From: Gemmatimonadota bacterium
GTDB taxonomy: Bacteria; Gemmatimonadota; Gemmatimonadetes; Gemmatimonadales; Gemmatimonadaceae
Direction: 5' to 3'
DNA: 35,610 bases
Assembly (NCBI GenBank): GCA_031127095.1
Contig: JARIEX010000020.1
Coordinates: forward strand, 1-35,610
In this document: positions 5,398 through 13,011 of the stretch, in pieces
Position numbering within the stretch: position 1 is the stretch's first letter
Layout: every line of letters begins with the position of its first letter
The notes under the pieces: model-generated
Seen by the model: the letters and a program-made list of their open reading frames with translations, nothing else
What the model was told of the DNA's origin: nothing
The model's database searches: none
Position numbers and translations under genes: made by a program

Positions 5398-5958
5398 ATG
5401 AACGTTTTCGACGCCATTTCCGGCCGCCGCTCCATTCGTAAGTTCACCGACCGCACGCCCACGCAGGCGGAGCTGGAGCAGCTGCTGCAGGCCGCCGTCC
5501 TGGCGCCGATCCATCGCCTCACGAATCCGTGGCGCTTCTACGTGCTCGGCCCCGAAGCGCGCGCGGCGTACGGTCTGGCGCTGGGCAACCGCAAGGCCAA
5601 GAAGGCCGCTGACGAAGCGCAGGCCGAGTCGATCCGTCGCAGCACCAGCGATGAGCATCGTGCCCAGCCGTGCATGTTGTTGGTGGCGATGGTGCTCAAC
5701 GAGAACGCTGAAATCCGCGAAGAAGACTACGCGTCGACGATGATGGCCACGCAGAACATCGGTCTCGCGGCCACCGCCATCGGACTCGGCACGCACATCC
5801 GGTCCGGCGCGATCATGGACGACCCGGCCGCACGCGCCGCCGGTGGCGTGCCCGAAGGCGAGCGTATCATCGCCGTGCTGACGATCGGTGAGCCGCTCGA
5901 AACGCCCGAGGCCAAGCCGCGTCTCGCGGCGGCGGACGTCACGCATTGGCGCGACTGA
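5398..5958 (+). CDS. Nitroreductase family FMN oxidoreductase
   Basis: 186-residue cytosolic member of the nitroreductase superfamily, which uses FMN and NAD(P)H to reduce nitro groups, quinones or similar acceptors. The FMN-phosphate-binding start SGRRSIRKFTDR is near residue 8, followed by the helix TQAELEQLLQAAVLAPI, NPWRF at about 42-46 and the C-terminal hallmark segment MMATQNIGLAATAIGLGTH. Its length fits the short YdjA-like group. The open frame begins nine bases earlier at a TTG, but ATG 5398 gives the typical N-terminus. No SD is obvious. The gene lies 80 bases after the DUF5916 gene and its stop is seven bases before the 188-bp satellite, so the repeats may lie in its 3' untranslated region. 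The physiological substrate is not predictable. Confidence 0.9.
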   Translation: MNVFDAISGRRSIRKFTDRTPTQAELEQLLQAAVLAPIHRLTNPWRFYVLGPEARAAYGLALGNRKAKKAADEAQAESIRRSTSDEHRAQPCMLLVAMVLNENAEIREEDYASTMMATQNIGLAATAIGLGTHIRSGAIMDDPAARAAGGVPEGERIIAVLTIGEPLETPEAKPRLAAADVTHWRD

Positions 5959-5964
5959 CCTGTT

Positions 5965-7293
5965 ACTGCTCGGTGCGTGGCGGTGAGATCGTTAACCGCC
6001 GGAACACGGATGACACGGATTACACCGAAACCACACGGATCATCGGTGTGTACGTCCACGGATGATGCGCAACGCAGGTGTAGGCTTTGGCTTATCCGTG
6101 TTGGTTCCGTCCATCGGTGTCATCCGTGTTCGAGCTGTTTCGGGGCTCGCGAACTGCTCGGCGCGTGGTGGTGAGATCGTTAACCGCCAGAACACGGATG
6201 ACGCGGATCACACCGAAACCACACGGATAAGCGGTGTGTACGTCCACGGATGGTGCACAGCGCAGGTGTAGGCTTTGGCTTATCCGTGTTGGTTCCGTCC
6301 ATCGGGGTCATCCGTGTTCGAGCTGTTTCGGGGCTCGCGAACTGCTCGCCAACTGCACGATGCGTGGTGGTGAGATCGTTAACCGCCGGAACACGGATGA
6401 CGCGGATTACACCGAAACCACACGGATACGCGGTGTGTACGTCCACGGATGGTGCGCAACGCAGGTGTAGGCTTTGGCTTATCCGTGTTGGTTCCGTCCA
6501 TCGGTGTCATCCGTGTTCCGGCTGTGTCGGGGCTCGCGAACTGCTCGGCGCGTGGTGGTGAGATCGTTAACCGCCAGAACACGGATGACGCGGATTACAC
6601 CGAAACCACACGGATAAGCGGTGTGTACGTCCACGGATGGTGCGCGAGAGCATCAACGATGTTGGCTTATCCGTGTTGGTTCCGTCCATCGGTGTCATCC
6701 GTGTTCGAGCTGTTTCGATGCCCGCGTACTGCTCGGTGCGTGGCGGTGAGATCGTTAACCGCCGGAACACGGATGACGCGGATTACACCGAAACCACACG
6801 GATAAGCGGTGTGTACGTCCACGGATGGTGCGCGAGAGCATCAACGATGTTGGCTTATCCGTGTTGTTTCCGTCCATCGGGGTCATCCGTGTTCGAGCTG
6901 TTTCGGGGCTCGCGAACTGCTCGATGCGTGGCGGTGAGATCGTTCACTGCCAGAACACGGATGACGCGGATTACACCGAAACCACACGGATCATCGGTGT
7001 GTACGTCCACGGATGATGCACAGCGCAGGTGTAGGCTTTTGCTTATCCGTGTTGGTTCCGTCCATCGGTGTCATCCGTGTTCCGGCTGTGTCGGGGCTCG
7101 CGAACTGCTCGGCGCGTGGCGGTGAGATCGTTAGCCGCCAGAACACGGATAACGCGGATCACACCGAAACCACACGGATAAGCGGTGTGTACGTCCACGG
7201 ATGGTGCGCAGCGAAGGTGTCGGCGTGGGATTATCCGTGTTGGTTCCGTCCATCGGTGTCATCCGTGTTCGAGCTGTGTCGGGGCTCGCGAAC
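5965..7293. repeat. Seven-unit 188-bp tandem satellite of long imperfect hairpins
   Basis: The sequence gagatc that opens each unit's shared block recurs at 5985, 6173, 6372, 6560, 6748, 6936 and 7124. The period is 188 bases, except one interval of 199 where 11 bases are inserted near 6350-6360. Every unit contains two arms of about 39 bases in inverted orientation (unit 1: 6002-6040 and 6094-6131), matching at about 32 of 39 positions, with a perfect outer block of 15 pairs in unit 1 and an inner block extending to 12 pairs in units ending the arm with ataagc. A loop of about 53 bases separates the arms and a spacer of about 58 bases separates units. The heptamer CACGGAT and its complement ATCCGTG occur about 36 times in total. 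The open frames running through it on both strands are made of the same repeated peptide and are not credible genes. Confidence 0.96.
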
Positions 7294-7299
7294 AATGAC

Positions 7300-7335
7300 A
7301 ACACCCGCTGTCGCATTCATGCGACAGCGGGCGTT
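7300..7335 (-). terminator. Strong terminator hairpin for a reverse-strand gene
   Basis: A 17-position stem (7300-7316 with 7319-7335) has one mismatch (7303/7332). Its core, cccgctgtcgcat, is perfect. On the reverse strand it is followed by the T-rich TTGTCATTGTT, and it lies 22 bases past the stop of the reverse open frame at 7358. The forward-strand flank is not T-rich, so the reverse direction is favoured. Confidence 0.7.
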
Positions 7336-7357
7336 GGGTCGATCCGACAGTGCGCGA

Positions 7358-7582
7358 TTACTCGAAGACGAGCTCGGCCGTAGTCTGTCCGCCACCGTTC
7401 ACCCACGGAATGAAACCAGAGTCATCCGTGCGCGTGTCCGTCGGCGTGGCGGTACAGATCACCTGGAAACCGGTGTCGGTCACGTTGAATGCCACTGCCT
7501 TCGCGACGCCCTTGTTGTTCGTGAGATGCGTTTGCGTCCCCGTCTGTGACGTGCCCGCCGCATCGCTGTAGAACGCGAACAC
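7358..7582 (-). pseudogene. C-terminal remnant of an unidentified gene
   Basis: A reverse open frame of 74 residues from GTG 7582 (the frame is open back to 7666) ends at 7358 just before a strong terminator. The sequence is beta-rich and Thr/Gly-rich (SDAAGTSQTGTQTH, NNKGVAKAVAFNVTDTGF) and resembles the last strands of an extracellular Ig-like or similar domain. There is no ATG, no SD, no signal peptide and no plausible N-terminal part in the other reverse frames upstream. The retained terminator suggests the 3' end of a once longer gene. It could instead be a small intact protein. I do not recognise the family. Confidence 0.35.
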
Positions 7583-7788
7583 ACACGACGGCGCGAATCG
7601 GACCGGACGAGGTGATGGCCCCGCGACGACACGCCGGCGCGGCCCCCTCGCGAGAGCAGGGAACGCCTACATTACCGGTTCGCTGCCAACGATCAATCCG
7701 CGTGTACCATGGGCGCGCCGGCACGGAACCCCTCCACCGTCTCACCGCGAGCTCTGACGCCGTGCCCACACACACCCCGTACACGCCC

Positions 7789-8974
7789 GTGCCAACCAGA
7801 CGGCGGGGCACCTGTATCCGTCCCTTGATCCCGCCGTGCCTCGCACTCCTCGGCCTCGCCGGATGCGCGGACAGCATCGGCACGGCGCCGATCCCGGCCT
7901 ACGCGCCGATGGCCACGGTAGTGTGGAACGCCGAGGCGCGGCTCGTGGTCACCGCGAACGCCACTCACCTCCCCCACGGCGACCCGCGCCTACACGCTCC
8001 AAAGCCTCGCGCAGCGCATCGTACTCGCACGGATCAGCGACACGGTGCTCACGTCGCGACGGGCAGCCGTGAGCTATGCGTCGTCACGCGTGCTCACCGC
8101 GATGGCCCCCACGAAAGCCGCCGCGATCCAGGTCACACTGCAGAATGAGTTGCGCCAGCCCACCGCCGGCACGCCGGCGGCACAGGCCGCGGGGAAAACA
8201 CTGGGCGAGTTCATTGCCGACTCCCTACTGCGGCTGCGCGCCGCCGACACCACCGCTTTGCTTGGTGCGGTGACGCTCCCCACCGGACCGGGCATCTGGG
8301 TCTCCACTGCCGGCAGACTGCCGGTGAATCCGCGCTGGGGCGAGGCGAAGCCGTGGCTGCTCACGTCGGCCGCGGCGATCACCGTGCCGCCGCCCCCTGC
8401 CCTCAACTCGTCGGCGTTCCTGACCGGGCTGGCGGAAGTCCGCCAGATCAGCGACACGCGCACCAGCGCCCAGCTCGCGAGCGCCGTCTACTGGTTCTAC
8501 GGCTTCGGCACCCCTACGCCACCGGGCTACTGGAATGGCGTGGCGTCCGACCTGTGCGTGCATTATCGGGTCAGCGAGCTGCAGTGCGCCACGATCCTCA
8601 CCACGATGAATCAGGCCATCATGGACGCCGGCATCGTGACGTGGCTGGCGAAATACCGCTACCTGCTGGCGCGCCCGAACCAGATGGATCCGGCCATCAC
8701 CATGCCGATCACGTTGTCCAACCACCCGTCATACCCCGCCGAATCGTCGTACTCGACTGCCGCCGCAGCGGTGTTGTCGTGGTACTTTCCGCGCGAACAG
8801 CCCCTGCTGGAGAGCTGGGTGAAGGAGTCCACCCTCTCGCGGATCTACGGCGGCGTGCACTACCGCTTCGACGGCGATGCCAGCGATACGATCGGCCGTC
8901 AGGTCGGGGCGCTGCACGTGGCCACCCTGTCGGCCGCCGGGCTGCGGCCGTTCCAGACGATGGTCCGGCCGTAG
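7789..8974 (+). CDS. Vanadium-haloperoxidase/PAP2-like lipoprotein, apparently frameshifted
   Basis: The C-terminal 309 codons (8045-8974) have the acid-phosphatase/vanadium-haloperoxidase layout: KYRYLLARP (K-x6-RP), HPSYPAESS in the place of PSGH, and SRIYGGVH (SR-x5-H). A matching N-terminus lies in a different frame: GTG 7789 (or 7762) encodes a lipoprotein signal with TRRR and the lipobox LAGC, then VVWNAEARLVVTANATHL. The two parts join if one C is removed from the run at 7971-7975, giving an uninterrupted product of about 394 residues continuing TATRAYTLQSLAQRIVLARISDTVLT. This may be a sequencing error in a homopolymer or a real inactivating change. The catalytic PSGH histidine is replaced (PAES), so even the repaired protein may not be a normal phosphatase or haloperoxidase. 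It converges with the binding-protein gene 7 bases downstream. Confidence 0.75.
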
Positions 8975-12742: not shown

Positions 12743-12800
12743 CGATCTCGTACGCCGCAACATCCGCTGCGTGCACGAGCTTCACAACGGGCGCCGCGAC

Positions 12801-12870
12801 GCCCACCGCCTATGGCCCACCGCCCACGGCCCACCGCCCACGGCCCACGGCCCACCGCCCACGGCCCACC
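12801..12870. repeat. Heptanucleotide tandem repeat GCCCACS
   Basis: Ten consecutive 7-base units of the form gcccacc or gcccacg run from 12801 to 12870; only the second (gcctatg) deviates. The array is in the 316-base divergent gap between the TonB receptor and the small membrane-protein gene. Apart from this and the dyad I see no gene in that gap. Confidence 0.9.
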
Positions 12871-13011
12871 GCCGCCATACCAACGCGGCACCCTTCACGC
12901 CGGTTGTCTGGCCTCGCACATTGGGATCGTGGCTGGGCTGAGTCACGCCGGTCCGGCATCGCGCCGACGCCGTGCGCCACCCCGTGGCGTGTCCTTCAAC
13001 AACCGCGCCCA

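Follow-up and report, generated by a model that had tools for sequence, protein, structure and literature searches.

What are the seven tandem hairpin units that lie directly behind a nitroreductase gene in this Gemmatimonadota genome, and how did they come to be there? An earlier note on this DNA, made from the letters alone, had described a satellite array with a strict 188-base period and offered three suggestions for it, a structured 3' RNA, a protein-binding array, or the relic of a hairpin-mobilised element. We examined the locus within the whole stretch of 35,610 nucleotides that was analysed (the window), and the features on which the argument draws are as follows.

5398 to 5958, plus strand: nitroreductase gene bordering the array on the left (PF00881, E 4e-25)
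5965 to 6152, no strand: unit 1, made of left flank, hairpin and right flank
5998 to 6135, no strand: hairpin core of unit 1, with outer arms at 5994-6020 and 6113-6139
6153 to 6351, no strand: unit 2, longer by 11 bases at its end; spacing 199
6352 to 6539, no strand: unit 3
6540 to 6727, no strand: unit 4, ending in GATGCCCGCGTAC
6728 to 6915, no strand: unit 5
6916 to 7103, no strand: unit 6
7104 to 7293, no strand: unit 7
7300 to 7335, no strand: separate near-perfect GC-rich stem past the array, terminator-like by eye
7358 to 7570, minus strand: apparent 3' gene fragment right of the array, its start seemingly lost (by eye)
8045 to 8974, plus strand: PAP2-like gene, scoring below the Pfam cut-off

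The array itself is confirmed. Seven hairpin units of about 188 bp occupy 5965-7293, for which Tandem Repeats Finder (TRF) gave a period of 188, 7.0 copies and 90% matches; the period is real but not strict, as one of the six unit spacings is 199 and the others 188, unit 2 being longer by 11 bases. The motif CACGGAT/ATCCGTG had been put at about 36 occurrences against well under one by chance, and this count stands: on both strands together there are 43 CACGGAT words in the whole window, 36 of them at 6005-7267, against a mean of 6.95 and a largest value of 14 when the whole window was dinucleotide-shuffled 100 times, or about 0.26 per 1.33 kb. The inverted arms are also real, but the inverted-repeat search on unit 1 returned arms of 27 nt that are 85% complementary and 92 nt apart, in place of the arms of about 39 bases and 82% matching reported before; the fold continues inward with interruptions, so that the earlier figures describe these arms more loosely. 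When the unit-1 core was folded on both strands against shuffled controls, as the earlier note had suggested, it did better than all of them, with z-scores of −5.1 (plus) and −6.3 (minus) for RNA and of −3.9 and −4.2 on the two strands for DNA, none of 200 shuffles being as good on either strand in either case. Point changes separate the units, and two loop haplotypes are interspersed among them. Rfam covariance models gave no match at E up to 1 in 5800-7500, and a plasmid search returned nothing.

The origin of the array can be read from the same site in related genomes. Nitroreductase matches were found in 18 relatives, and the downstream side was viewed in nine; in six of these (G014, G015, G017, G023, G024 and G029) the gene is followed by a single hairpin and then by nuoN. 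The hairpin is a clear CACGGAT one in G015, G017 and G023 and a clear CGCGGAT one in G029, it is weak in G014 (CGCGGAT, score 24) and it has decayed in G024 (internal deletion, score 29), and in the more distant G004, G006 and G019 the neighbours are different and the roughly 720 bp after the nitroreductase contain no hairpin of this kind. The seven-unit array at this site was seen in one genome, where the relatives carry one hairpin. Outside their hairpins, the window units carry both flanks of the single copy, TGCTCGGTGCG... on the left and GATGCCCGCGTAC on the right; GATGCCCGCGTAC is the right flank before nuoN in G017 and G023, and in unit 4 it runs into left-flank sequence. The two flanks meet at the junction of units 4 and 5 with a 3-bp overlap, TAC, and we infer that this boundary is likely the original duplication joint. 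Since the relatives have a single hairpin and its flanks recur inside the units, the comparison shows, as judged from sequence, that a single ancestral nitroreductase/nuoN hairpin was amplified locally in tandem together with its flanks, the copies having then been reshuffled.

The hairpin is a member of a dispersed family. A search with unit 1, one of the checks proposed at the outset, did find copies elsewhere in its own and related genomes: its own genome (an assembly of 3.50 Mb in 229 contigs, 83% complete) gave 44 match segments on nine contigs, and among 61 genomes matches were obtained in 15 including its own, all of them within the genus, to which 30 of the 61 belong, and in none of the 31 others, the counts per genome being lower bounds as at most 13 candidates were scored per relative. 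Other copies in the same genome form an array of 6.6 units of 255 bp (C110) and one of three units of 136 bp (C138), and single hairpins stand at C55, C202 and C91. By TRF, hairpin arrays were present in three of the seven loci that we ran (L311, L032 and L036) and none was detected in L312-L314 and L317; the three further arrays have periods of 255, 136 and 228. Where their sites were examined, the hairpins adjoin the 3' ends of genes, and their arms are built of 7-nt CAC(G/C)GAT words at a spacing of 9-12 nt. At three single-hairpin sites the hairpin is kept in 11 of 12 aligned relative loci, G015 having lost nearly all of one, and the G029 stretch at the C55 site holds a hairpin. In G023 a single hairpin and its right flank are duplicated in tandem (L232, G023:C82), apparently a first step towards an array, and in G014 a 188-type unit stands at another locus (L049, G014:C534:1-290), beside a gene that by eye resembles one for a metal-transporting ATPase.

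The conservation of these hairpins is concentrated in the words. At three orthologous sites the words, as defined on the reference sequence, are 90.1% identical (590/655), compared with 73.2% (1222/1670) for the rest of the hairpin, 73.6% (823/1118) for adjacent intergenic DNA and 87.4% (7255/8305) for the remaining, mostly coding DNA. In an alignment of 27 copies, 85.7% of cells pair, which is above all 500 shuffles, with several middle pairs mostly broken. The covariation score of this alignment likewise lies above all shuffles, but the shuffle count is 10 of 500 for pairs in which both sides changed, it is 99 of 500 for additional pair types, and RNAalifold gives a covariation term of just −0.3. 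Because many middle pairs are unpaired, the search pattern had itself fixed the outer words and the covariation term is so small, we claim no RNA structure from covariation. The identity of the words above that of the rest of the hairpin, together with the broken middle pairs, rather indicates that the words appear to be conserved as sequence more than as base pairs.

The hairpin family is physically tied to genes of the GxxExxY family. The genome of the window has two PDDEXK_3 genes, both GxxExxY (TIGR04256) by NCBIfam; at one (L039) a CACGGAT hairpin begins in the stop codon, as it also does at L102, L104, L107 and L170, and the hairpin at the other (L040) is made of CGCAGAG words. Within the genus, 31 of 85 GxxExxY gene matches became loci, one of them without downstream sequence, and a downstream hairpin with a score of at least 30 was found in 17 of 30, against 4 of 17 for PAP2 genes and 2 of 12 for nitroreductase genes outside the array site (G020 and G021); overall, 7 of 19 nitroreductase controls have such a hairpin, five being array-site loci. 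Flanking inverted arms with a score of at least 31 surround only a few of the genus genes, 6 of 30, and in the genus the whole hairpin lies downstream. Speaking against the link, no CACGGAT-linked GxxExxY gene was detected in three hairpin-rich genomes (G015, G024 and G026, assemblies 82-88% complete); each has two GxxExxY matches, the fetched one without a CACGGAT hairpin and the other, by its flanks, at the L040 site.

Beyond the genus, inverted word arms bracket GxxExxY genes in several phyla. A scan of named genomes provided a first multi-phylum set of 46 GxxExxY loci, of which 43 were used, with titles from Chloroflexota, Bacteroidota, Planctomycetota and Gammaproteobacteria and 17 from Gemmatimonadota, several sharing contigs with the genus loci. 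A downstream hairpin was present in 13/43, a flanking inverted repeat in 20/43 and either in 32/43, and the control ORF ends had hairpins in 20/223. At least two window-type words followed the stop codon in 16/43, including 11 of the 26 not titled Gemmatimonadota, compared with 3/203 controls, the word pattern for this set having been written after some loci had been seen. Among those 26, the locus titled Candidatus Kuenenia (L187) holds the sequence of a genus locus (L105, genome G010), and its title or binning is therefore doubtful.

Further paralogues were then drawn from 24 first-set genomes, and are thus new loci in the same genomes. Of 84 matches, 15 that were weak, short or adjacent were omitted before their flanks were viewed and 69 were taken; 23 already in the first set and 2 too near contig ends were dropped, leaving 44. 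The word rules applied to these loci had been set down beforehand with a Chloroflexota set in mind, and the inverted-repeat measure with its cut of 31 was taken over from the S23 (see below) and first multi-phylum analyses, outside the preset word rules. By this measure, a flanking inverted repeat of at least 31 was found in 39/44 against 0/17 control ORFs. Window-type words lay downstream in 13/44, upstream in 13/44 and on both sides in the correct orientation in 12/44, with two loci on each side showing wrong-orientation words and none of 36 control ORF ends showing any; downstream hairpins numbered 9/44 versus 2/27 in controls. A second count at the cut of 31 gave 68/3000 for mismatched upstream and downstream pairs, 6/30 for the genus, 19/29 for a reduced first set and 39/43 for the further paralogues. 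Among 53 arms the periods peak at 9 (15 arms) and 10 (11 arms), and for 26 of these arms none of 50 shuffles did as well. That genes of PF13366 and PF05635 lie among repeats of this kind was the background to looking at these two families.

The words also follow the protein. Among 104 loci, of whose proteins 8 lack the motif, the GPG-type proteins have CT-class words at 17 and AT-class words at 2, and the other GxG proteins AT-class words at 29 and CT-class words at none, 48 of the 96 motif-bearing loci having no clear word and the word classes having been written after the sequences were seen. On a quick tree of few columns with many open forks, the word class changes 3 times over 53 labelled rows, against a shuffled mean of 16.9, with 0/500 shuffles as low. 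Protein identity correlates with arm similarity (rho 0.22, reached in 0/500 permutations) when pairs with alike outer flanks are left out. The word of the window is of the AT class, as in Gemmatimonas GWG-type proteins. This agreement of word and clade may be explained, without recognition, by gene and arms having descended together as a single element; recognition of the words by the protein would explain it equally.

The AlphaFold model of one GxxExxY protein (L168) has a mean pLDDT of 92.7. Its best PDB matches by Foldseek are SSO0001, which we take to be a Cas4 protein, and the A. fulgidus and other archaeal Hjc Holliday junction resolvases, with an identity of just 15-22%. Four matches have E below 0.001 with query-normalised TM-scores of 0.41-0.59, and over the best seven the range is 0.39-0.59 with an rmsd of at least 6.6, which amounts to modest fold similarity; by sequence, no PDB relative was found at E up to 1. 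Residues D69, E79 and K81 are invariant in 29 sequences and fit the PD-(D/E)XK pattern, and the protein is predicted to have a PD-(D/E)XK-like nuclease fold. The literature searched, in which most subscription papers were beyond reach, gave no function for GxxExxY, no account of inverted arms around its genes and no match to printed motif forms of the repeat; the passage of one paper that names GxxExxY concerns a CRISPR neighbour (PMC8934634).

Small genes within inverted arms are known from another system. Two papers place the S23p ORF of 23S rRNA intervening sequences within inverted repeats (PMC4990558, PMC11270868), and one of them places heptameric repeats upstream in the Coxiella intervening sequence (PMC4990558). 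The S23 loci of the genus (34 of 110 matches) share this anatomy: flanking inverted repeats of at least 31 occur in 21/34 against 0/19 for nitroreductase, and 13/34 lie above the 99th percentile of mismatched S23 pairs. The S23 genes, of the four-helix-bundle type, stand within long inverted repeats of many different sequences (L041-L045, L119-L147). The comparison speaks for a wider class of small genes enclosed by inverted arms, but the hairpins of the window differ from intervening sequences in lying between protein genes, in holding no S23 ORF and in having GxxExxY-type words. The array lies outside any rRNA gene, with the nitroreductase at its left and with nuoN after the hairpin in relatives and on contig C204 of the same genome, and the five S23 matches of its own genome are all on contigs other than that of the window.

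Taken together these data suggest that the array units probably derive from a GxxExxY fold-back element with REPIN-like anatomy, as copies without the gene that multiplied locally; the fold-back anatomy is found at the gene loci, and the window units themselves hold no gene. Of the three original suggestions, the relic of a hairpin-mobilised element comes nearest, given the dispersed and GxxExxY-tied family, but the link to TnpA-REP that accompanied it was not found in this genome. We propose that gene and inverted word arms would form one fold-back mobile element, whose GxxExxY protein would recognise the words or an extruded cruciform, and that gene-free hairpins could have spread in trans with GxxExxY help in an ancestor and would now be mostly inherited vertically. 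The array itself could have grown by duplication across the 3-bp overlap, followed by unequal exchange or slippage at the palindromes.

No fresh hairpin insertion was found, and no empty site with clear borders was seen in 20 regions covering 7 of the 8 sites compared. The hairpin sites are old and shared, and present-day activity may therefore be nil. Sites without the gene do occur: the L043 site in G026 and the L045 site in G027 are free of the S23 gene and look like deletion remnants, the L045 site in G028 has neither the S23 gene nor a recognisable remnant, and the L040 site lacks the GxxExxY gene in G020 and G028, its flanks being too diverged to define borders. At the site orthologous to L039 in G028 (L227, G028:C1:223500-225200), a different long imperfect inverted repeat surrounds a terminator-like stem, with no GxxExxY gene in the stretch viewed, and in G020 (L228, G020:C1:134600-135800) a GxxExxY-type arm is apparently interrupted by an insertion-sequence-like reading frame. 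MITEs and non-autonomous fold-back elements are gene-free, palindromic and dispersed, as are the window hairpins; the difference is that neither a target-site duplication nor a transposase was identified for the hairpin family.

A wider proposal, which we put forward tentatively and hold to be possible rather than probable, is that GxxExxY proteins might be junction- or hairpin-processing PD-(D/E)XK nucleases of undescribed multi-phylum fold-back elements, each clade recognising its own 7-nt word (of the ATCNGYG or CTYYGYG class), with the gene-free hairpins, some of them in arrays, as passengers. The finding of GxxExxY genes inside inverted word arms whose class tracks the clade offers a testable role for the family and a possible origin for the CACGGAT/ATCCGCG-type repeats beside GxxExxY genes in several phyla; if true, a nuclease-linked class would join the REPIN and intervening-sequence kinds of hairpin elements.

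The alternative that survives best, although we consider it unlikely, is that the hairpins, in line with the structured 3' RNA of the earlier note, are selected host 3'-end RNA structures, such as RNase III sites, mRNA stabilisers or two-way terminators, and that their adjacency to GxxExxY genes is incidental. Its expectations agree with the hairpin sites kept between species, with RNA folding that reaches a z-score of −12.2, and with the hairpins after some control genes noted above (nitroreductase 2/12, PAP2 4/17). The neighbour orientations point the same way, with 9 convergent, 8 tandem and 0 divergent among 17 hairpin loci by a crude ORF caller and with the array site scored by the doubtful right flank of the window, but they give weak support because several loci are orthologous, leaving about 10 distinct sites. 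RNA structures of the host would not lead one to expect conserved words where spacers and many pairs drift, nor inverted word arms that stand on both sides of GxxExxY genes in other phyla and go with the clade of the protein, and by eye no T run follows the stem of the array units.

It is improbable that the CACGGAT words serve as binding sites for a sequence-specific host protein of the nucleoid, gyrase or regulator type, and the array as its titration or docking site. The protein-binding array suggested earlier draws some support from the conserved words at orthologous sites, spaced by 9-12 nt within the hairpin, and the arm words around GxxExxY genes are most often 9-10 nt apart, near one helical turn. 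The part of that suggestion that does not hold is the 188-bp period, which had been taken as close to 18 helical turns: the sister arrays of 255, 136 and 228 share no phase at about 10.5 bp per turn, and helical phasing as a rule is thus unsupported. Moreover, a docking site fits poorly with an array at the nitroreductase site of one genome where relatives manage with one hairpin, and with a word class that follows the GxxExxY clade.

Repeats of the REP/REPIN type, moved by a RAYT (Y1) transposase that is missing from the incomplete genome or was lost, are a highly improbable source, for all their similar anatomy. REPINs are inverted word doublets that form hairpins, are dispersed in extragenic DNA, sometimes in tandem arrays, and are related to repeats beside a single gene (PMC3116915), and the REP head carries a GTAG/CGTC tag (PMC3733652). 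The window unit is also an inverted doublet that forms a hairpin, but its arms are of tandem words, most often spaced at 9-10 nt, and its linked gene is GxxExxY, with a predicted PD-(D/E)XK fold. The RAYT/TnpA-REP link raised by the earlier note found no backing, as Y1_Tnp (PF01797) had 0 matches in the 83% complete genome of the window and the same search was positive in 5 of 14 control genomes. Derivation from a GxxExxY fold-back element thus remains the reading that we prefer.

At the right-hand side of the array the contig deviates from its relatives. The window at 7294-7600 opens with the apparent gene fragment and has no match to the conserved neighbour nuoN, while contig C204 starts inside such units, runs through 2.7 of them and continues into nuoN (TIGR01770 at cut-off; PF00361). 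From the synteny with nuoN in relatives and on C204, the junction near 7293 is therefore a rearrangement or a misjoin, and the right-hand join of the contig is doubtful. The PAP2 orthologue in G015 and G024 is preceded by other sequence, and the upstream stretch viewed there contains no hairpin of this kind. That an assembly artefact accounts for the seven-unit array itself, as the 229 contigs, the right flank at odds with synteny and the start of C204 within the array could be read, is the least credible explanation, since unit-specific point changes and two interspersed loop haplotypes argue against simple assembly duplication, as does the single spacing of 199. Elsewhere in the window, a 7-bp repeat, CGCCCAC in 10.6 copies, lies between genes at 12800-12873, and by its GGCCCACGG-type words it is similar to the inverted arms that surround an S23 gene in L042.
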